A stretch of 64,000 bases of DNA from assembly GCA_963989385.1 (NCBI GenBank), contig OZ022513.1, positions 20,381,928 to 20,445,927 of the forward strand, read 5' to 3'. How positions within the stretch are numbered: the first letter of the stretch is position 1; the number at the start of each line of letters is the position of its first letter. A model generated the notes under the pieces. It had not been told where the DNA came from and did no database searches. It saw nothing but the letters and a program-made list of their open reading frames with translations. The position numbers and the translations under genes were made by a program. This document shows positions 6,169-45,172 of this stretch, one piece after another. Source of the stretch: Ctena decussata (Eukaryota; Mollusca; Bivalvia; Lucinida; Lucinidae).

Positions 6169-6383
6169 AATCCATTTCTTTTCGGTCGGTCTTTTATAGT
6201 AATATGTGCGATATTGTTTCAGCCTATTTCACGTTTTTCTGTATTCAGTATCATGAGATATGAGTGAGTTTCTTATCGCACGATTTGCTAGTCTTTTAAA
6301 ATGATTGTTTTGAGTGTTTAAGTCAGTCGACCGCTTCGCTACGTAGAGACAGGTCTGTGTATTTTCTTTTGTTTCTGAAATTT
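6169..6383 (+). repeat. Block B: 215 bp identical to 11401-11615
   Basis: By reading base by base I find no difference between 6169-6383 and 11401-11615. The block runs from aatccatttcttttcggtcg to ttgtttctgaaattt. Flanks are unrelated on both sides except for the AAT junction bases. It has no long ORF and no obvious termini or target duplications. Confidence 0.85.
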
Positions 6384-11270: not shown

Positions 11271-11615
11271 GAACCGTAGCGAACAGCGGCATTCCTATTC
11301 ACAATTCGTTGTTTCTTTATTTCTTAATCAGCATTTTGTTTTAAGACATGTTAGAAAAGACAATATTTATTTTCGGACAAACGAAGTGCGGGAGAAAATA
11401 AATCCATTTCTTTTCGGTCGGTCTTTTATAGTAATATGTGCGATATTGTTTCAGCCTATTTCACGTTTTTCTGTATTCAGTATCATGAGATATGAGTGAG
11501 TTTCTTATCGCACGATTTGCTAGTCTTTTAAAATGATTGTTTTGAGTGTTTAAGTCAGTCGACCGCTTCGCTACGTAGAGACAGGTCTGTGTATTTTCTT
11601 TTGTTTCTGAAATTT
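11271..11615 (+). repeat. Composite block A+B
   Basis: 11271-11402 (block A) matches 12339-12470 with one visible difference. 11401-11615 (block B) is identical to 6169-6383. A and B are contiguous only here. Block A at 12339 leads directly into the non-LTR retrotransposon, so A may be a 5' UTR or promoter part of that element and A+B a differently truncated relative. No LTR-type TG...CA ends are seen. Confidence 0.7.
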
Positions 11616-12564: not shown

Positions 12565-13500
12565 TTTCTTTGTTAAACGTTCAAGGATTAGTAACAAAGT
12601 TCACAAACAAATTGCATTCTGATGAGTTGATTGAATTATTTCAAAATAACGATTTTATATTATTCACCGAAGTAAAATGACCTATGTGATTTGTCAGTTG
12701 ACGGATTTTCTATCTATCAGTTAAATAGGACATATAGAAAATACAATGCTAAGCGCGATTCCGGTGGCATTGCCTTATATGTGAAAAATGACATAAATCA
12801 ATATTGCAAACTCCTCAAAAAAGACAATGACGATATTATCTGGTTAAGAATTGATAGGATTATACGATCTTTATCTTTGTCTTTGTTATATAATACCAAC
12901 ATGTTCAAGTAGAGAAGCGTAAACTGAAATCAGTGTCTTAGATCGAATTTCAGATTTTATTGTTAACATTGCTATGTTACTGATAATTGTTACAACATTT
13001 TGATTTGTGGGGACTTAAATTCTCGCGTAGGGGCTTAGCATGATTTTGTAATATTAGATAACTCAAATCATCTGCCAGACGATTACGTTCCTGACGATTT
13101 TTTGCCAAGGTGTTCGGAAGACAAAAAAATAAATGCAAATGGCAGAAAATTACTAGATTTCTGTAAGCAAATTGAACTACGAATTTGTAACGGCAGATTA
13201 GGGAGTGACAAAAATAATGGAAAATTTACTTTTACTGGTAGTTCAGACAGAAGCGTAGTCGACTATGTAATAACAAGTCCCTCAATGTTCAAATTATTTA
13301 AAACATTCAGTGTTGGCGAACCAAATATTTTGTCTGACCACTGCATAATCAAATTCTCTATGTTGAAACATACAAATACATATACTGTTCAAAATGAAGA
13401 AACGGAACCCAGTGAACGCCTGTATAAGACGTACAAATGGGATGATACCAAAAAAAGATCAATATTTTTAACTGAAATGGGGCAGAACATAAATTTTTGA
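12565..13500 (+). pseudogene. LINE AP-endonuclease domain, broken
   Basis: A reading frame from about 12572 gives NVQGL...KL and ends in FTEVK, corresponding to the N-terminal NxQGL and ETW-type motifs. After a stop, 12691-12912 gives RKYNAKRDSGGIALYVKN, and near 13003 ICGDLNSRVG (the D-x-N motif) appears in another frame. Then 13102-13500 gives GRKLLDFC, a T-S-x-S-VVDYVI segment and LSDHCIIKF, the C-terminal SDH motif of this endonuclease family. At least three frame breaks or stops are present, so it is not functional. Confidence 0.8.
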
Positions 13501-13505
13501 ACTTA

Positions 13506-15462
13506 GGGACCGACCATTTGATATTCTGGGGGGGGGGGGGGGGGGGGGGGTGGGGGCTGGTGTTCTTGATGGAGACACGACATTTTATTTCACTGGCCTC
13601 TGCAAACAATTTCTTTTTTTTCACCTTGTGGGAGCTAATTCATTTTTTTTACAAACTAACTCAAACAGGTTATTTTTTTTTTAAATTTTATAGCTGAACT
13701 ACCAGATCCTTGTTTACTTGACCTTAATATCCTATTATTTTACCCACATCAGTAATTTTTACACCTTTTTTCTCACTAAAAGAACATGCTGCTGTCTGTA
13801 AACAGGCTAAGGGCATGGTTTAGCTTGCTTTTGCAAACCAGTGCCTGGAGCATGTTACTCTTTTCATCTAAGGTACAGATACAAACATCCCTGTATGAGT
13901 TTGGCAAAAACTTAGGCCTTAAATTAGGTATATTTTGGCCAAAATTTAGGGCTATTTTGGCAAAGTTTTAGGGCTAACATTAGGAATTTAAGGGTTTTTT
14001 TTTCTAGCCCAATATATGCCCCAAACATGCTTTATTTGCACTTTAGAAAGTTTGATAAATACTTACTTATAGAGTTCACATTCTACATGAATAGCAGTTT
14101 AATAAAATGGCCGAAAGTTATGTGCTAAGAAGTTAACTAAGGGGGGTCTGGGGGGCAATCCCCCCAGAAGCTAAAGCAATATCCCAATTTTAATGGCAAT
14201 TTTAAGACTGGAAACAATAGAGAAACACTAGGAATGATGATAAAAATAAGATTTTTTTTTATATCAGGACTTTTGCCTTTTAAAGTGTTTATTTTGCCAT
14301 AATGGTTTTGTCTTCCTTAAGCTAGTGACTCTTTTGCAATTCAGTTTTAATGGAAAAATTTACTTAGTAATGTGGCAGATCAATAATACATGTATATGAA
14401 TGTTGTGTAGGATGTTTTTGTAAATGTATGCACATGCGGCCCGCTGGTGTAAACCAATTGTAGATAAAATTAAAATATTACTATAAATATGGGGGTCAGG
14501 GGGGCAATGCCCCCCAGAAGCTAAAGCAATATCCCAATTTTAATGGCAATTTTAAGACTGGAAACAATAGAGAAAAACTAGGAATGATGATAAAAATAAG
14601 GGTTTTTTTATATCAGGACTTTTGCCTTTTAGAGTGTTTATTTTGCCATAATGGTTTTGTCTCCCATAAGCTAGTGACTCTTTTGCAATTCAGTTTTAAT
14701 GGAAGCATTTACTTAGTAATGTGGCAGATCAATAATACATGTATATGAATGTTGTGTAGGATGTTTTTGTAAATGTATGCACATGCGGGCCCGCTGGTGT
14801 AAACCAATTGTAGATAATATTAAAATATTACTATAAATATGGGGGTCAGGGGGGCAATGCCCCCCAGAAGCTAAAGCAATATCCCAATTTTAATGGCAAT
14901 TTTAAGACTGGAAACAATAGAGAAAAACTAGGAATGATGATAAAAATAAGGGGTTTTTTATATCAGGACTTTTGCCTTTTAGAGTGTTTATTTTGCCATA
15001 ATTGTTTTGTCTCCCATAAGCTAGTGACTCTTTTGCAATTCAGTTTTAATGGAAGCATTTACTTAGTAATGTGGCAGATCAATAATACATGTATATGAAT
15101 GTTATGTAGGATGTTTTTGTAAATGTATGCACATGCGGGCCCGCTGGTGTAAACCAACTGTAGATAAAATTAAAATATAACTATAAATATGGGGGTCTGG
15201 GGGGCGCCCCCAGACGCCAGAGACAATATAAAAACTCAATTCCAATGGAATTATCAGCAGACAATTTTTTTTTTTTTTTTTTTTTAAATTTGGGTGGAGA
15301 CAGGTTATTTTTTTCTCTTACTTTTGAGGCCAGATTATTTTTTTGAACCCCCTTATGAGCCAGGTTATTTTTTTCTTGCATATCCAACACCAAAGACAGG
15401 GAATATTTTGATAAATATACCAGGCCCCCCCCCCCCCCACAGAATATCAAATGGTCGGTCCC
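13506..15462. mobile_element. DNA transposon, 1957 bp, TTA duplication (PIF/Harbinger-like by TSD)
   Basis: Perfect 23-bp terminal inverted repeats start GGGACCGACCATTTGATATT and then meet a G-run (left, 13529-13550) or C-run (right, 15423-15438). The 3-bp duplication TTA is at 13503-13505 and 15463-15465. Insertion was into the LINE body between endonuclease and RT, whose coding sequence resumes at 15466. The interior holds three 350-bp tandem units (14141-15190) and, near the right end, three short tracts of the form caggttattttttt. No transposase is seen. Superfamily assignment rests on the TWA-type duplication alone. Confidence 0.8.
14141..15190 (+). repeat. Three 350-bp tandem units inside the transposon
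   Basis: The motif ctaaagcaatatcccaattt recurs at 14171, 14521 and 14871, and ctataaatatgggggtc at 14481, 14831 and 15181. The period is therefore exactly 350 bp. Units differ at a handful of positions. Each contains ggggggcaatgccccccag, a small inverted repeat. A partial fourth unit start follows at 15181. Confidence 0.9.
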
Positions 15463-15465
15463 TTA

Positions 15466-17983
15466 TCTTCAAATTTACTGCAGGCTAGTGAGTCAAGAGA
15501 TATAGTTAAAAACGTTGGTCTTTTCTTGAATTTAATGGAAAACGTGTGCGACCCGATATTTGCAAAAAGAAAAAAAAAGTACCAAGTGAAGGATGCACCA
15601 ATCCAAATTAGTACCATCAAACAAATAGACACTGGTTCGACGAAGAATGTCAAGCATTCAGAGATCGCTTTTACAGGGAACTAAACATTTACAGAGAGAA
15701 TAAAAATAACATAAACCAAAATATGATAACTGCTCGGTCGAATTTTAAAAATCTGATAAGAAGAAAGCGGTATATCTATGACAAATCTCAAACAGAGAAA
15801 CTGATTTTCACAAAATATAATAATGCAAAAGCTTATTGGCGTTTACTTAAACATACTGCTAATCTAAATGTTAAACACTCGATTAAGGCAAAGCAATTTG
15901 CGGACTATTTTAAAGCCATAAACGACCCGGATGACAGATTTTACCAAGTTGATGAGGACATATTATTTTTCAACGAGCGGTATGGTATGTTAGAGGCGAA
16001 TTTCAAATTATGTTCGACGAACTAAATAGGGAAACATTAAGAAGCGAATTACAAACCGCTATCCGATAAACAATTACGAAACGGAGCAAGCGCTGGCCCC
16101 GACTTATTACTGAATGAGTTTTTCAAGAATGGGTCCGAAAATTTGATTAACTATCTGCACGTTTTACTTAATAAATTGTTTCAAATGGGGTATTTTCCAG
16201 AAAAATGGTCAAAGGGTTTTATTGTACCGATTTTCAAAAAGGGAGACATTAATGAGGTATCGAACTATAGGGGCATAACATTACTGAGCACATTAGGAAA
16301 GTTATTTACCAGAATACTTAATAACAGATTGAATAAATGGGCTGAGGATTATGGTGTTTATATTGAAGCACAGGCGGGTTTTCGAAAACATGAGCACAGT
16401 CGATAACATTTTTGTATTAAATGGTCTAATTAATAGTAATAAATATCTATACTGTTGTTTTGTGGATTTCACTAAGGCTTTTGATTATGTCGAGAGGGAT
16501 ATTTTGTGGTACAAACTGATTAAAATTGGGGTGAGAGGTCCGATGTTAGATATTATAAAACCAATATATAACACTGTAAAATCCAAGGTTAAAAGCAACA
16601 ATACACTGAGCGAAGCATTTTCATGTAATATTTGGGTACGTCAAGGGGAGTGTCTTTCGACGTTTCTGTTTGCCATGTATGTAAATGATCTAGAACAAGA
16701 ACTGGGTAATAATGGGATAAATGAAATTGATATAGGCATGGTTAAGCTTTTATTGCTCCTTTATGCAGATGATATTGTTCTTTTCGGCAAAACGCCTGCT
16801 GAACTGCAAAAATCCCTAGACATACTTGAAACATATTGCAATAGATGGAAGTTAACAGTGAACATCGCTAAAACCAAGGTAATCGTATTTCGGAAAGGGG
16901 GAAGATTGCTAATTAATTTAGCGTTCACTTTTAAAGGAAGTAATATAGAAATAGTAAACAAATTTTGTTACCTTGGCATAGTCTTTACTGCTGGAGGCTC
17001 ATCTCTTGAAACACAAAAAAATTCTTTCGGGTCAAGCACTTAAAGCGATTTTTACGCTTAATAAATGTATTAATAATTTCACGGTTTTAACGCCTGCTCA
17101 TGTTCTTGACCTATTTGACAAACTGATTTCCCCAATTTTAAATTATGGAAGTGAAGTTAGGGGTTTTCATAAAGCTAAATCAGTCGAAACGGTCCATTTA
17201 TCTTTTTGGAAAAGAATGTTGGGAATCAAACAAACCACACAAAATGATTTTATATATGGGGAATTAGGTAGAATGGATTATCAGTCACTTAGATACATCA
17301 ATATCGTAAAATTTTGGTTAAAAATTATTCATACTGATGAGCGAAAATACATAAAATGTATATACAATACGATGCTTAATGATATTGAGTTAAAACCAAA
17401 TAAACAAAATTGGGCGTCAATGGTAAGGCATTTATTAAGCAGATTCGGGTTTTTGGAGGTTTGGTATGCAAAAGGGGTTTGAAATATAAGCAATTTCTTA
17501 GGTACATTCAAAACACGAGTTAAAGATGTCTTTATGCAAGATAAGCATGCAAGACTCAAAAATTCTACAAGAGCAAGGTGTTATATAAATGTAGCGAAAT
17601 TTCAGTTCCAGAAGTATCTAGAAATATTAAAAATAGAAAAATATAGAAAAAGCATGTGTAAACTTAGAGTATCTTCGCATAGGCTTGAGGTTGAAACTGG
17701 AAGATGGGCAAAGCCATAAAAAATACCTCTGGAAAATAGATTATGTATGAATTGTTATTTATTAGAGGACGAGTTCCATTTCGTACTTGAATGCTTTCTT
17801 TATAAAGAACTAAGAAAAACCTATATTAAACGGTATTATTGGCAAAGACCAAATATGCCAAAATCTATCGATCTACTCTCATCCGAAAATTGTCGTATTC
17901 TAAAGAATCTTAGCATTTTCATCGATAAAGCGTTTAAATTGAGGGATATACAGATCAAATTGGCTGCAGGTAATTATAATTAA
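15466..17983 (+). pseudogene. LINE reverse transcriptase and C-terminal region, broken
   Basis: Frames in order: linker 15466-15684, 15723-16025, RT start 16143-16406, RT core 16351-17043, post-RT 17006-17482, 17534-17719 and 17747-17983. RT landmarks are IVPIFKKGD and NYRGITLLS (fingers), AQAGFR, FVDFTKAFDYV (motif A, first catalytic Asp), VRQGECLSTFLFAMYVNDL (motif B, with the usual G-x-S/L-P region altered) and YADDIVLF (motif C with both Asp residues). The thumb follows as NRWKLTVNIAKTKV. The C-terminal piece has C(6)EDEFHFVLEC, resembling the terminal Cys/His motif of these elements. Frame changes occur near 16385, 17010 and 17480 and stops elsewhere. Confidence 0.85.
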
Positions 17984-19522: not shown

Positions 19523-20192
19523 GTCATCAGTACTCTCAGTGGTAAGTTTTTAAACACACATCTTTTTGAAATTCGGTTCAGCATTCACGTATGGTAAAAC
19601 AAGTCCGCTTGTTTAGCAATTTGAGTCATATAACCAGAGGTGTCTGAGAGACCGCAATATTCACAGAACGCATTTTTCACACGTGTGTGATGAATACGGT
19701 CGTATTCTTCACATTTTGCCAGTGTGACAAATGCGTTCGGATTTTGTAGCGATTTTTAATGGAAACGCATTTTTCACAAATACGGCAAGAGAAGCTTGAG
19801 AATGAATGATTTGTTATTCCTTTCCAGCTACGACTATGAGTTGAGCCCCAACTGCACTGAGCATTCGGCACTTGGGGAGTTTATAGGAAAAGCAGTACCC
19901 GCTGTCCGTCGTCCGTCGCCTGACGTCGTCTGTCAACACCTTCGAGCTATTATATCTCTTAAGCGTCTGGGCCAATCACAACCAAATTTCATATATAGCG
20001 TTCTCAAGGCTGGAGAACGATGCCATGTCCTTTAAGACAGTTGCTTCAGATTTTGGTTGCTATGGCAAGTAAAATACCCCGTCGACTTATAACTGAGAGA
20101 TGCTTCTGACCTGCCTAGCTTCTCGAAACTTGCCGATAACTCAGATAGGCATTAAATCTTAGACAAACTGACAACTGTTCAGATTCGACCGA

Positions 20193-20450
20193 GCCGGTCC
20201 GCGTAGCGCAATCGATAGGGCACCTGACTCATAAGTCAGAGGTCCTGGGTTCGAAACCCGGTCAGGCCACATACTTTCGTTTCTCCTTCCGCTGATTCAA
20301 GAAGGGCAGTTGTCAGTTACTGGCGAAAGTATGTGCACTTAGTACTGGTTAACCGCTTAGGAGGTCTAAGCCTGCGCAGGAATAGTGTGGCTAGGTTAAC
20401 TGACCGTCCCGACATGACCATAGCTGTTTACCGTTGATCAATCAATCAAT
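20193..20450 (+). mobile_element. tRNA-derived SINE, V-SINE/RUDI type
   Basis: The head contains tRNA-like A-box (gtagcgcaatcgataggg) and B-box (gggttcgaaacccgg) sequences. The body shares a conserved central part with the copy at 34818 (gttactggcgaaagtatgtg, ggttaactgaccgtcccgac). It ends with an (atca)n tail. A perfect 13-bp duplication CAGATTCGACCGA sits at 20180-20192 and 20451-20463. The name RUDI rests on my recollection of the molluscan V-SINE family; tRNA-SINE status is shown by the sequence. Confidence 0.85.
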
Positions 20451-24094: not shown

Positions 24095-25270
24095 CAATAA
24101 GAGAATTGCACAACCCGCAGGTTAGCACTATAATCACTGTGTGAGTCCGTCCGTCCGTTATCAGTTAGCGAAAACCGTTATCAGTTAGCGAAAACGCTTA
24201 TATCTCTTGAACCGCATGGGATATTTTGACAAAATTTTGCATACTCGTACCTGTCAACATTGTCTAACGACCCGCATGCATAACAACCATATTTGATAGA
24301 CGAGGCTTTGCTGAGCACAAATTGAAAATTTACGGTCAACTACTGAAAATGCTCATAAGTCTTGAACATCGTGGTAAATATGGTTCGAATTTTGTATGCT
24401 TATGTATTTTGACATAGTCCAGCCACCGGCATGCAAAAAAGTGACGAGGCTTCACCGAGCATCAATTTGGCCGGTTCAGCTCTTTCATTGAAAATGCTCA
24501 TAACTCTTGGACCGCTTGGTATATTTGCTTCAAATTTTGTATACTTATGTAATTTAACATTGCCCAGCCACTGGTATGCAAAACATTGACGAGGCTTCAC
24601 CGAGCATCAATTTGGCCGGTCAAGCTCTTTTATTGAAAATGTTCATATCTCTTGGACCGCTTGGTATATATGCTGTGTATACTTACATGTATGTAATTTA
24701 ACATTGCCCAGCCACTGGTATGCAAAACTTCTTATTGCACAACGCGCAGGTTTGCACTATAATCACTGTGTGAGTCCGTCCGTCCATCCGTCCGTCCGTT
24801 ATTAGTTAGCAAAAACGCTTATAACTCTTGAACTGCATTCTATATTTTGATAAAATCTTATTGCACAACCCGCAGGTTTGCACTATAATCACTGTGTGAG
24901 TCCGTCTCTTGAACCGCATTCTATATTTTGATAAAATTTTGCATACTTATACATGTCAACATTATCTAACGACTCGCATGCATAACCGTCTTTTTTGATG
25001 GACGAGGCTTTGCTGAGCACAAGTTGAAAATTTACGGTCAAGTACTGAAAATGCTCATAACTCTTGAACCCCGTGGTGATATGGTTTAAATTTTGTATAC
25101 TTATGTATTTTATTATTGTCCAGCCACCGGCATGTAAAACGGTGACGAAAGTCTAAACAGTATTGCACGACCCAGAGGTGTGCACTTTAATCGCTGTGCA
25201 AGTCCATCAGTCCTTCCGCTGTAGTCAGTGAGTGAAATTGCTCATAACTCTTAACCACATGGTGTAGTTT
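24095..25270 (+). repeat. Cluster of molluscan gtccgtccgt-type dispersed repeats
   Basis: At least four partial units share ttgcacaacccgcaggt, cactataatcactgtgtgag, tccgtccgtccg, cataactcttgaacc and atattttgataaaattttgc. Two more subunits share gacgaggcttcaccgagcat. Arrangement suggests repeated insertion or unequal exchange within one family. The type is common in bivalve genomes to my knowledge; no coding function is seen. Confidence 0.7.
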
Positions 25271-25960: not shown

Positions 25961-26055
25961 AGAGTAGTGCCATAGTATTGTACTATTTTTTTTTTCATTG
26001 CAGGATTCGTTCATAAATACTGTTACAGCATTGTTATCTATACAGATGATACTTC

Positions 26056-26229
26056 TGTTACAATTTCAGGTATATAAACACTTCAACAACCTTGCTGTAG
26101 AAGACGGCTTTTATGGCAACGCGGGTAGAGTGGCAGGCTCTTTCACGAAGATAAGCAACGGAGATCGCGGTTACTACCTGGTTGTGTGAGCGGTTGCTTG
26201 ACTTGGTGTACGTCCGGACTTACGCTACA
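26056..26229 (+). repeat. 5' LTR of the 5S-containing TRIM
   Basis: 174 bp from TGTTACAATT to CTTACGCTACA. It contains TATATAAA at 26071-26078 and the 5S-like segment at 26144-26193. Here the 5S boxes are damaged: aagAtaagcaacg instead of aagttaagcaacg, and ggttCtaccTgg changes in the C-box region. Confidence 0.85.
26144..26193 (+). pseudogene. 5S rRNA-derived segment in 5' LTR (damaged)
   Basis: Aligns with the internal control region of animal 5S rRNA: cacgaagataagcaacg (A-box), then cgcggttactacctgg and gtgtgagcgg (C-box). There are several changes relative to the 3' LTR version, including in the box C core ggatgggtgacc. As a Pol III promoter it is probably weak. Confidence 0.75.
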
Positions 26230-26231
26230 TT

Positions 26232-26247
26232 TGGTGGCAGCGGTGAG
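26232..26247 (+). promoter_or_regulatory. Primer-binding site, tRNA-Leu type
   Basis: TGGTGGCAGCGGTG begins 2 nt after the 5' LTR. It is complementary over 14 nt to the 3' end of a tRNA-Leu (acceptor ...caccgctgcca plus CCA), as I know those tRNAs. This marks the start of minus-strand DNA synthesis. Confidence 0.75.
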
Positions 26248-26397
26248 ATAGGAGATGACATCTCCATCATCTCCGGACCCAGGCTTACAGGGAAAGGTGT
26301 CCCTGGTTGGATTGCATAAGCGCCGCCCTCGGGTCTGCTATGGGGCTATGGGAGCAGCTGGTGACTTCAGGACGAAGTCAAGAGAAGAGGTGGAGGC

Positions 26398-26410
26398 GGG
26401 GGGGAGGGAA
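26398..26410 (+). promoter_or_regulatory. Polypurine tract of the TRIM
   Basis: Uninterrupted purines gggggggagggaa immediately abut the TGT of the 3' LTR, the expected plus-strand priming site. The upstream 15 nt are also purine-rich (gagaagaggtggagg). Confidence 0.75.
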
Positions 26411-26584
26411 TGTGACCGGTTCAGGTATATAAACACTTCTACAGCATTGCTGTAGAAGCCGGCTTTTATGGCGACGCGGGTAGAGTGGAAGGCTCTTTCA
26501 CGAAGTTAAGCAACGGAGATCGCGGTTAGTACCTGGATGGGTGACCGGTTGCTTGACTTGGTGGGCGACCCGTCTTACGCTACA
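26411..26584 (+). repeat. 3' LTR of the 5S-containing TRIM
   Basis: 174 bp from TGTGACCGGTTC to CTTACGCTACA, with TATATAAA at 26426-26433. It preserves the 5S-like promoter better than the 5' LTR. Confidence 0.85.
26499..26548 (+). pseudogene. 5S rRNA-derived segment in 3' LTR (boxes intact)
   Basis: cacgaagttaagcaacg followed by cggttagtacctggatgggtgacc reproduces the A-box and C-box region of animal 5S rRNA with few changes. The rest of the 120-nt gene is not recognisable, so this is not a 5S gene but a captured promoter region. Confidence 0.8.
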
Positions 26585-26588
26585 CTTC

Positions 26589-26999
26589 ATCACAAACTTG
26601 AAAAGACTCAAACGTTACATAAAATACACTTACTAATGCGATGTCCCATTGGAAAAATATGTGACGGCATGTTCTCTACGGCGCTTTCTATTTCCTTTAA
26701 ATTTCACCCGACTTTCGGCCTCTTGCATTTCGATTGGTGAATATGTAGTGATCTACCGTCACAGAAGCGGTTAACTTTTGACGTCATCCTGTTTTTCTCA
26801 AACGGAACGTTTGGCTTCATTACATAACGTAGCGACAGACAGACTGTACGACCTCTTTTTCTTACCATTTTATTGATTTCTATTCAAACCAGTCTAATTT
26901 GGATAACAATTTCCGTTTTGGTGTCGTAACGAATGAAATTTCATTGTGTGGTAATTGTAAAACAATATGCCTTTCCACGCGTCTACCATAGAGCTCCCG
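26589..26999. other. No feature recognised
   Basis: Spacer after the TRIM; no gene or repeat identified. Confidence 0.3.
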
Positions 27000-29737: not shown

Positions 29738-29970
29738 TCAGGACATGCGCACTCCGCCCAGATGCCCATTCAGGACATTTGCACTCCGGACAGATGACAG
29801 TTTATGACATGCACACTCCACACAGATGACATTTTAGGTCATGCACACTCTGCACAGATGACAGCACATGACGTGCTTACTTCGTAAAGATGGCTGTTTA
29901 GGACATGCACACTCTGCACAGCTGTACAATGCAGGACATGCGCACTCTGCACAGATGACCATGCAGACAT
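29738..29970. repeat. Minisatellite, unit about 36 bp
   Basis: Six to seven degenerate units of aggacatgcacactctgcac followed by agatgac and a variable spacer. The Cys-rich minus-strand ORF over it (AECACP repeats) is a by-product of the repeat. Confidence 0.75.
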
Positions 29971-34242: not shown

Positions 34243-34817
34243 TCGTGGATAAAAAAAGATACCTAGGAAAGGCATCAGTTACCAAAAGCAACCTACCTAA
34301 GACACCGAAATAAGACGGAAGAAACCCAAACATAAATACGAAACAGTACATCTTTGGTAACAGACTATTTTAACCGTTCAAGCGCCAAAAAGCAGACGAC
34401 AAAATTTACGTCTTCAAAAATTTCAAAATATGTTTCATCCAAGCTATATCATATTGAAAATTCAAAAACTAGAGGGCAAACATTGTAGATCTAGATGAGG
34501 TGGCTCATAATGAACCACCTCATCAGGATCTGCACTGTTTTCAAATTCTGCCATTTTCATTACTGGCGCGTTCAGTGTTAAAACCACGAGACAAAACAGG
34601 AAGCGAAAAAGACAGCTAATCAGTTGACCACACTGCTAAACATACTACATCACGGGTTTCTGCTTTGGAATCAACGGAAGCTGCTGGTTATGCGTGCAAT
34701 CTCACACTCCCTTCTGATGCAGCTTCAAAACAAGCACGTGTTCGGTCTGAGTAAACGCATCCTCACTCATCATTGAGACATCACAATAGTAAGCTCATCA
34801 GAAACACTTTCCATAAA

Positions 34818-35095
34818 GCCGGGCCGTGTAGCGCAATCGGTAGGGCACCTGACTCGTAAGTCAGAGGTCCTGGGTTAGAATCCCGGTCTGGCCACATACT
34901 TTCGTTTCTCCTTCCGCTGATTCAAGAAGGGCAGTTGTCAGTTACTGGCGAAAGTATGTGCACTTAGTACTGGTTAACCGCTTAGGAGGTCTAAGCCTGC
35001 CCAGGAATAGTGTGGTTAGGTTAACTGACCGTCCCGACATGACCTTAGTTGTTTACCGTGGACGTTAAGCATCGAATCAACCAACAAACCAACCA
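34818..35095 (+). mobile_element. tRNA-derived SINE, V-SINE/RUDI type, second copy
   Basis: Highly similar to 20193-20450. It has the A-box (gtagcgcaatcggtaggg), a B-box with one change (gggttagaatcccgg), the same central domain, and a longer tail gttaagcatcgaatcaacc plus aaccaac repeats. A perfect 12-bp duplication ACTTTCCATAAA lies at 34806-34817 and 35096-35107. Confidence 0.88.
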
Positions 35096-42292: not shown

Positions 42293-43607
42293 AAATGAAT
42301 CAAGGAAACTGCGTCCTGTCGACACACACAAACATGCGTGCACATGCAAACCCGTACGTAAACACACGTTTTAATCCAAAAAGGCAATTAACAGAAAAAC
42401 TGGCTACATCCATATGGTTCTGGAGAATGCTTTTATTGTAATTATAATAGTCTCGAAACTTTAAACTATTTCATTAGCCAGCACATATTACAAAATCACT
42501 GCAAATGAACACAAGCTTATCCAAAAGCTTTAGAAGACTGGAAAAGTTTGCAAATGCCTAATAATAATGCAAACTTTTACAACACTCTTTCAATAAAGTG
42601 AATTGCTCTCGTTATTTTACAGATATTTCAATTTCTTCAATGCGGAATAAGGAAATGGCATCAATAAAACTAGTCATTTTTAGCTATTACAATTCAAAAT
42701 ACTGCTAACTAGTAGCAACGGCAGATAAGGAGATGAGAAAGGAAAGTAACAATGGTTAATAATTTGTTAAACTAAAGCTGTCAAAAAAGTAAATGCTTTG
42801 GGTGTAACATAAACGATATTTACTGTTTGTAATCTAAAAGAAAAAGTCAATCGATAGATGGAGGAAAAAGGAGTGCCGTTTTGGCTATAAAAGAGCTAAA
42901 TGTCTCATTGAACGTTTTCTTTGATACTGCGGAGGCCTCATAACTTCATTTTTTATTGCATTTTCTATAAAAGATTTCCGAATTTGGACAGACTTTCATT
43001 CCAGTAACTATATTTCAGTACATGTACATGCATTTTTTTCAAAATATTTGGGAATTTTCAACATGAAATGGCCAAAACAAACTGCCATTTATTCTTAAAA
43101 CTGGCTTTGGGAGCAAAATAATAATAGTTTTGGATGACCAAACTACATGTACACTCTAAAATCCAATAACAAAGAAGACATTTATACTAACTCAAGGTTA
43201 TTATTAATCAACAAGGGATTCGAAGTATTGACGAGATATAAGAAGAACTTGTCCACTTTTGAGGTAGCTCCAGTCTCAATTTCTTACAGAAACCGATAAC
43301 CAGTAAGCCTAGAAGGGTTGAGACTTTCAGTCCTATTCAAGAGGGAGTCACAAAATTTTGAACAGACGGAAATTGTTTGAAGTTGAGACATAGGTCGATC
43401 TGGTTTTAAAACTGGTGCTTCTACTTATGTGTTTTGTTTTCTATAAACTAAAATGTTTCATTCTCATCACGTTTTGGGACTCCTATTTATCAACAAATAA
43501 AATACAAGCAATTTTAAGGAATTTTGGAAGCCACTTTTGACTTTTATTTACTTTGATGAACCGAACTTTTATCAAGACGAAACACTATGAAGATGAATTA
43601 TACATAC
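42293..43607 (-). other. Intron of the SLC16-like gene (rest)
   Basis: Remaining 1.3 kb of the 42045-43607 intron, bounded by GTATGT at the 5' end. AT-rich; no further exon or repeat identified. Confidence 0.6.
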
Positions 43608-44342
43608 CAGCTAGGGGCCCGCCAGTCAGTTGACCTGCTGCTTCAAACAATAACAGACATCCATACCCATTGGCAAATCGATGTAGTCCTAAAATTTGGA
43701 TCTGAATAGACACCAGCAGTGTTCCTATGCAACCAGAAAACAACCCGAACATCACAGCAATACACAGTAAGGCTGGAAATGTTTTGCCATAAGGAGTCAA
43801 ACAGACGAATATTCCGGCAATAAGAAACGACACACCATACAGAACAATCACATTAACTCTAGGGTGATGTGCTATAAACCCGTATCCGAATCGGCTTATA
43901 AGATTTGCCACACCAAGTCCTGATAGTAGATAAGCGCTTTTATCTGGATCAATACCCTCGGATTCCGCCAGCGCAGTGAGGTGTATATACAGGACAGAAA
44001 TTCCACAGCACCACAGTAAATTATTCAAACATAGTGTGAGGTATCCTCTTTTTCTAAACGGAGTGATGTCTATAATTGGTCGGTCCTTCTGGTACATGCC
44101 AGGTCTATCAATTGGCCGTATCAACGCGCCAAATACACACATATTAAAGCTAAGAGCGCCAAGGATTAACAGGCTAGACTTCCACTCATAGGCAGTAATA
44201 AGGGATCTGATTAGAACAGGGTACAGAAAGTTCCCAACGCCGATCCCGGACGCAGCTATCCCCGCGGCAATAGTTAATTTCTTTTGGAAATAGTAGGAAA
44301 CGGCAGTAATTGCTGGTATATATGCTAGTCCCAGACCAACAC
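43608..44342 (-). CDS. SLC16-like (monocarboxylate transporter family) central exon
   Basis: 735 bp, phase 1 at both ends: acceptor ttatcatttcag at 44343, donor ctgGTATGT at 43607. It encodes 245 residues covering the end of TM3 through most of TM11. Family signs: GVGLGLAYIP followed by the conserved YYFQKKLTIAAGIAASG segment of the TM4-5 region; a short (about 30 residues) TM6-TM7 loop ending TPFRKRGYL; TM8 with LISRFGYGFIA, whose Arg matches the conserved TM8 Arg; and TM11 FANGYGCLLLFEAAGQLTGG. In proton-linked MCT1 an Asp precedes that Arg by four residues; here it is Asn (VANLISR). This is compatible with the MCT9/12/14-like group, whose substrates vary. Plasma-membrane location is expected. 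Substrate not inferable. The N-terminal exon with the usual D-G-G-W-G-W signature is not seen. Confidence 0.92.
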
Positions 44343-45172
44343 CTGAAATGATAATAATAGGAAATTCAAGACACAACGTAGTTTATACCAACTGACGTAT
44401 ACTGTCTTGTGTGGCATGCGTAACCGTAGACAGATAATGACAATTTCATTTCTCCTTCAAACTGGTTGCTGCGTCCTGTCAAATGTTTACCATGCCCTGC
44501 CTCTGCAAAACACGATTTGCTCATGCACCGATAGATGCACACAAACAGCGAGCTTGCTCTCATGCAATTCTTCATACGAACCCAGCAGCCAAACAACGTC
44601 AAGATAACGTCCTATCAATGTTGATCCGGAAGTTGACTTTGTGTGTCCGCTTGCAGTGGACAGTTCACACCAGACAACTACAGAACGTAGCAGACAGCAA
44701 CTAACACAGAAAAAATGTGTACATGGTAAGCGTATGCTTATGAGAATGCACAAAAACAATATTTTCATACAGTACAAGATTATACCGAAATTAGGGATAA
44801 TGGTAGAATATACTGTATGTTATACTGATGCAAACCATTAAACTATAGAATAGTATTGTCCTTATGGGTCTAAAGGGGTTAGCCACATTTCGTTTTTCTC
44901 TAGGGTGACCTTTAAATATAGGTCCTAATTTCGGATCATGCTGCTAAACATAAAAGTGACCCTCTGCAGGCAGGTTTGACTGTACATATACCTCTAAGTA
45001 AATGGAAACATGAATGACGATACCCAAGAAAAGCCGTCCGGAAACACAAAATATAACTCACCCAAAGTAAACCCAAGACTAAGAAAAAGAATCATTATTA
45101 CTCATCACCTTAAACATAATGCTCATTATTACCTTCTACAATGTTTATATTAATTTGACTAGGACTTTTCTA
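44343..45172 (-). other. Intron of the SLC16-like gene, 3' part
   Basis: Non-coding portion of the 44343-52757 intron. Short frames at 44366-44841 on both strands have no domain character. Confidence 0.5.

Follow-up and report, generated by a model that had tools for sequence, protein, structure and literature searches.

A TRIM with 5S rRNA promoter boxes in both LTRs in a probable bivalve genome

The DNA analysed here is a stretch of 64,000 nucleotides (the window) in which a 529-bp gene-less element with the anatomy of a TRIM lies at positions 26056–26584. The element and the features described within it are given on the plus strand. The window also contains, at 43585–44382 on the minus strand, an MFS_1 (monocarboxylate-transporter-like) exon for which a homology search returned 91 matches. 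The five best organism-named matches of this exon are all molluscan (Mya arenaria, 62%; Mactra antiquata, 61%; the unionids Potamilus, 58%, and Sinanodonta, 57%; Lottia, 50%), as expected from the bivalve-type host proposed in the original prediction. The remaining organism-named matches are bacterial with far weaker scores, and other matches have identities of up to 79%, and of 96% with 68% of the query covered.

The two LTRs, each with TG...CA ends, occupy 26056–26229 (LTR1, the 5′ LTR) and 26411–26584 (LTR2, the 3′ LTR) and enclose an internal region of 181 bp (26230–26410). Copies of CTTC, a target site duplication (TSD) to which no strand applies, flank the element on the left (26052–26055) and right (26585–26588). 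Both CTTC copies are preceded by an A, which on the right closes the LTR; the 4-bp length of the TSD therefore depends on the canonical CA end. Two nucleotides (TT) past LTR1, at 26232–26245, begins the predicted primer binding site (PBS), TGGTGGCAGCGGTG. This site is complementary to a reference tRNA-Leu 3′ end over 14 consecutive nucleotides and at 15 of 16 positions overall, a yardstick from which the host's own tRNA may differ; the tRNA-Leu type proposed for the site is thus supported. The TG...CA ends, the CTTC duplication, the length of the interior and the placement of the primer site two nucleotides past LTR1 had all been predicted and were all found. Two other statements need qualification. 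The purine-rich tract said to lie directly before LTR2 (26380–26410) does abut it, but the full tract includes two pyrimidines and is unbroken only across 26398–26410. Likewise, the LTRs described as two equal 174-bp repeats are equal in length but not in sequence: 154 of 174 positions are identical (88.5%), with 20 differences, no gaps and a K2P distance of 0.125.

Eleven reading frames (stop-to-stop, at least 40 aa) overlap the element, the longest of 76 aa, and some extend into the flanks. Protein searches with two of these 11 chance frames, aimed at copies in assembled contigs, yielded no homologues. A structured internal RNA was considered and rejected, as the 181-nt internal region is matched or surpassed in folding by 157 of 200 of its shuffles (z 0.79). 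In its short TG...CA LTRs, PBS, purine tract, small size, want of coding capacity and flanking duplication, the element has the features by which TRIMs are recognized.

The TRIM reading had been declared to fail if the two repeats proved to be part of a longer tandem array. A self-search of the 64-kb window revealed no further copy of the LTR or of the internal region, other matches being 27 nt or shorter, and with only two units in 64 kb a tandem array in the window is rejected. Beyond the window, a 21-mer gave no matches in prokaryote genomes and viral contigs, and the A-box to C-box pattern described below gave none in viral contigs. An LTR 16-mer found 35 stretches in IMG/VR, the best of which extend to 23–27 nt among the matches listed and are taken as chance; a search with the PBS pattern found five stretches whose likeness never goes beyond 15 nt. 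The element copy is thus known here from one locus, and it is probably old and dead, given the LTR divergence of 0.125 and the damage to the LTR1 boxes.

A segment derived from 5S rRNA and running from A-box to C-box lies in LTR1 at 26147–26191 (A-box 13/14, C-box 17/23) and in LTR2 at 26502–26546 (A-box 14/14, C-box 21/23). We scored A-box, 8-nt gap and C-box at the fixed 5S spacing (maximum 37) over 127,880 positions on both strands, using box positions that, like the invertebrate-type and human 5S yardsticks, are general references and may differ from those of the host. LTR2 (35/37) and LTR1 (30/37), both at exact spacing, hold the first and second ranks, and the next best position scores 21; the 5S boxes predicted for each LTR are therefore present. 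In a local alignment to human 5S, none of 5000 dinucleotide shuffles equalled LTR2, while 472 equalled LTR1 and 4492 the internal region, so LTR1 taken alone is unremarkable in this test. Amongst 1468 overlapping 174-nt pieces from both strands aligned to human 5S, the LTR2 piece scores 19 and the runner-up 12.5. Printed 5S primers from oyster and copepod carry TTGGATGGGTGACC, one base off the LTR2 C-box.

The likeness to 5S is confined to the internal promoter. Over 5S positions +48 to +95 LTR2 agrees with the invertebrate-type sequence at 39 of 48 positions and with human 5S at 35 of 48; on either side it is near background, with 13/47 over +1 to +47 of the invertebrate-type sequence (other registers average 11.2 and reach 16) and 6/23 over +96 to +118 (other registers average 6.1 and reach 12). 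Within the fragment, the intermediate element (IE) would fall in the 8-nt gap that separates the boxes, but there LTR2 matches 5S at only 3 of 8 positions, most of this stretch being lost. A search of 26000–26640 against Rfam gave no 5S match even at E 10, the sole match being a snoRNA model on the opposite strand (E 6.4), and we rejected a full 5S gene on this ground. We also rejected a tRNA-type promoter, since neither Rfam nor ARAGORN gave a tRNA match within the element.

That both the repeat and its 5S likeness are chance events is a reading to which we give almost no credence. The missing Rfam match and the 472 of 5000 shuffles equalling LTR1 would suit it, but the two top-ranked positions of 127,880 sit at the same offset in the two LTRs, and for LTR2 the rank test and the shuffles (0/5000) refute a chance likeness. 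The original prediction, which would have given up the promoter claim had the similarity not exceeded chance, stands on this point. Each LTR thus carries a small-RNA gene promoter, with A- and C-boxes at exact spacing and a weak intermediate stretch, and judged from its sequence 26056–26584 is a real TRIMp3-type element, that is, a TRIM with Pol III promoter sequence in each LTR.

The 20 differences between the LTRs are unevenly distributed. Within a 66-nt 5S stretch, LTR2 holds the 5S letter at all six differing positions and LTR1 is the changed copy (two-sided p 0.03). Five of the six lie inside the boxes and one beyond them, where the likeness to 5S equals background; the five alone give p 0.06. 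Only 4 of the 20 differences are transitions (p 0.012 if half are expected, 0.24 if a third are), the other 16 being transversions. One-sided changes in the 5S stretch and a scarcity of transitions are not well predicted by simple neutral ageing. Both would be easier to understand if two LTR-like units from different insertions had been joined by recombination, in place of a single retrotransposed copy, and bivalves are known to have tandem TRIM arrays (PMC6934838). We nevertheless regard such a join as distinctly improbable, because CTTC matches on both sides of the element and the window holds no additional unit.

The 5S register predicts where transcription would begin. The predicted +1 falls at 26100 in LTR1 and at 26455 in LTR2 and is a G in both. 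The motif TATATAAA stands at 26071–26078 in LTR1 and, in the same register, at 26426–26433 in LTR2, in each case at −29 to −22 of the predicted start; TATAWA within the 15-nt slot from −33 to −19 occurs at 1.5% of window positions. LTR2 also contains a perfect 10-bp hairpin with a 3-nt loop (26436–26458), followed downstream by CCGGC and then by TTTT at +10 to +13 (26464–26467). We propose that the hairpin is part of a stop signal and that the TTTT is the Pol III stop for an RNA started in LTR1. The 39-nt stretch with the hairpin folds at −14.3 kcal/mol, a value equalled by none of 200 shuffles. Perfect 10-bp hairpins with loops of 3–5 nt occur at five loci in the window, and only the LTR2 hairpin has TTTT within 15 nt downstream, counting both strands. 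The LTR1 counterpart (26081–26103) has decayed such that the 10-bp stem does not form, and the 5′ end of the predicted RNA (26100–26139) contains no comparable hairpin (z 1.08). An RNA from 26100 to 26467 would be 368 nt long with GAAGNCGGCTTTT at both ends, the 5′ end repeat (R) being predicted at 26100–26112 (+1 to +13). Of ten poly(A)-signal forms sought in the element nine are absent, and the tenth, TATAAA, occurs solely within the two TATA motifs. The position of the TATA motifs together with the LTR2 hairpin and TTTT suggests a Pol III RNA with terminal repeats of about 13 nt.

Our main reading, which we put at a probability of roughly 0.7, is that the element is a gene-less LTR retrotransposon with the outer boxes of the 5S promoter in both LTRs, likely transcribed by Pol III and likely dependent for its copying on the enzymes of an autonomous element of Gypsy type. 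According to this model, TFIIIA would bind the LTR1 boxes, the TATA motif would help to place the start of transcription near 26100, and from there a Pol III transcript of about 368 nt would extend to the TTTT at 26464–26467 in LTR2. The hairpin–TTTT stop would act only at the far end, where the whole LTR2 hairpin would be transcribed just ahead of the TTTT; it would be silent at the 5′ end because an RNA beginning at +1 does not include the 5′ arm of the LTR1 hairpin. The RNA would carry the same approximately 13 nt at either end for use in strand transfer, and tRNA-Leu and the purine tract would provide the primers for minus- and plus-strand DNA, respectively, with a putative autonomous Gypsy-type helper supplying the copying enzymes. 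Tentatively, and with the odds against it, we extend this to a mollusc-specific lineage of 5S-promoter TRIMs in which A-box and TATA place Pol III initiation within the hairpin's 3′ arm, leaving the hairpin–TTTT stop blind at the 5′ end and active at the 3′ end and producing the 13-nt end repeats; this would be a new solution to the problem of starting and stopping within the same LTR.

Several observations weaken the Pol III model. TTTT terminates Pol III only weakly, and a role for hairpins in such termination is contested. TTTT is present at +10 in LTR1 too, so the stop model requires Pol III readthrough there. The LTR1 hairpin is broken, and little survives of the intermediate stretch between the boxes (3/8). 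This last loss also tempers the suggestion that the truncated 5S segment reflects selection for Pol III transcription: the outer boxes are indeed near intact in LTR2 and the 5S sequence is limited to the promoter, but most of the stretch between the boxes is gone.

TATA motifs also serve Pol II. The element could accordingly be a TRIM with a Pol II promoter built around the TATA motif, in which the 5S segment is a disused passenger, for example one left by a 5S-derived SINE that had jumped into an LTR of an ancestor. The presence of TATATAAA in each LTR, the loss of the intermediate stretch and the lack of an Rfam 5S match would all fit such a history, and plant relatives of Cassandra with TATA and without a 5S promoter have been described (PMC10853983). 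However, boxes matching at 35 of 37 positions in LTR2, at exact spacing and with flanks near background, are hard to explain without constraint until the time of insertion, and apart from the TATA motifs themselves the element has no poly(A)-signal form. We therefore consider the Pol II reading unlikely, though it deserves to be kept in mind.

The closest published element is Ajax, a 5S-promoter TRIM of the nemerteans Notospermus geniculatus and Lineus longissimus, described together with the proposed name TRIMp3 (Kojima 2024, PMC10886601). Ajax elements are 421–434 bp long, have a tRNA-Leu primer and a 5-bp TSD, and carry a promoter-only 5S fragment that comprises boxes A and C and the IE (PMC10886601). 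The present element has in common with Ajax the TRIM organization, promoter-only 5S sequence in both LTRs, a tRNA-Leu primer site (here the 14 consecutive nucleotides against the reference tRNA-Leu end), a purine tract and the absence of genes. It differs in its likely heterodont bivalve host, its length of 529 bp and its weak IE, a motif named for Ajax: in LTR2 boxes A and C are near intact and the stretch between them is not. Its TSD is of 4 bp, taken with the canonical CA end, and not of 5 bp, although this is a weak test given a single copy with A before both CTTC copies. By description, then, the element is close to Ajax in design; we do not claim membership in Ajax, since the TSD size differs and the comparison is one of published design. 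The shared design would also be expected if a nemertean-type Ajax element had entered a bivalve genome through horizontal transfer, and horizontal spread has been proposed for another bivalve TRIM (PMC6934838), but the differences in TSD, length and IE, with Ajax compared by description, make such a transfer very unlikely.

The original prediction had called the element Cassandra-like. Its TRIM anatomy with a 5S promoter supports the comparison, but Cassandra is no longer the only point of reference, as the animal Ajax has been in print since 2024 (PMC10886601). Cassandra elements, of 565–860 bp, produce an RNA whose start and end both fall in the 5S portion of the LTR, with 18-bp end duplications (PMC10886601). 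The two designs thus share a 5S promoter in the LTRs of a TRIM and short RNA end repeats arising from start and stop in the LTR (PMC7215508, PMC10886601), the latter as predicted here. Cassandra belongs to vascular plants and ferns and has a 5S part with terminators; in the present element the likeness to 5S covers only +48 to +95, the predicted hairpin and TTTT stop lie outside the 5S fragment, and the host looks molluscan. We treat the resemblance to Cassandra as an analogy only. Independent origins of Ajax and Cassandra are called "almost certain" by Kojima (PMC10886601), and in the light of that argument the idea that a shared design might be far older than thought finds no support here; the present element likely arose independently of Cassandra, as argued for Ajax.

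Other TRIMs and LTR elements are known from bivalves. Animal Helenus elements have 4-bp TSDs and primer sites shared with Gypsy elements only (PMC10886601), which favours a helper of Gypsy type for the present element. Bivalve Helenus, from Pteriomorphia, uses primer tRNAs for Lys, His, Ile, Pro, Glu and Ser, not Leu (PMC10886601). Helenus is thus a bivalve TRIM with a small-RNA gene promoter in its LTRs and the TSD size found here, but its promoter is tRNA-like with boxes A and B, and the present one is of 5S type with no tRNA match by Rfam or ARAGORN. The biv-TRIM elements of bivalves, heterodonts included, have terminal repeats of 202–218 bp around 77–80 bp and an unclear primer site (Satovic 2019, PMC6934838), and so differ from the present element in their lengths and in the want of a clear primer site; the early Results and the Discussion of that report make no mention of 5S likeness. 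The bivalve Gypsy element Steamer has in Mya an LTR of 177 bp and a tRNA-Leu primer site, TGGTGTCAGAAG (PMC8905726). It resembles the present element in LTR length and primer type and differs in being autonomous and in the sequence of the primer site (TGGTGTCAGAAG versus TGGTGGCAGCGGTG). A mussel relative of Steamer has a putative Asn primer site (PMC11046912).

Among the matches listed in a search of titles and abstract openings in the open-licence literature, no 5S-promoter LTR element of a mollusc was found, though one may already have a Repbase entry, and in the searched text of a bivalve transposon survey (PMC10294476) the terms "cassandra", "sine3" and "5s rrna" have no occurrences. The methods of the Ajax screen name two nemertean assemblies only (PMC10886601), so that screen does not speak against such elements in molluscs. 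The 5S-promoter TRIM is therefore likely new for molluscs, the design itself being already published for Cassandra of plants and for Ajax of two ribbon worms, which supply the 5S-promoter TRIMs in the literature searched. A mollusc case whose TSD differs in size suggests that LTR elements have captured 5S promoters repeatedly. The 174-bp unit also makes testable how a Pol III element sets both ends of its RNA from identical LTRs. Finally, partial 5S matches in bivalve genomes should be treated with caution as they may be LTRs.

The window contains several other repeats, which we record as separate observations. Pieces of a LINE lie in several frames at 13039–17482, with an endonuclease-like piece at 13039–13497 (just below the Pfam cut-off) and a reverse transcriptase at 16333–17040; a 350-bp tandem repeat (14089–15205) lies between the two. 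A read-through translation of repeats at 24203–25150 matched no Pfam family. Two 246-nt copies at 20192–20437 and 34817–35062 are 95% identical, and an Rfam tRNA match at 34822–34894 within the second copy makes a tRNA-headed SINE likely. A repeat of some 250 nt is dispersed between 18813 and 58163; a single 137-nt reference finds 14 members in direct orientation, and many copies pair inverted as well. This is possibly a palindromic MITE-like family. A 215-nt direct repeat (6169–6383 and 11401–11615), its copies 5.2 kb from each other, has a listed identity of 100%, and a tandem repeat with a 32-bp unit lies at 29742–29933.
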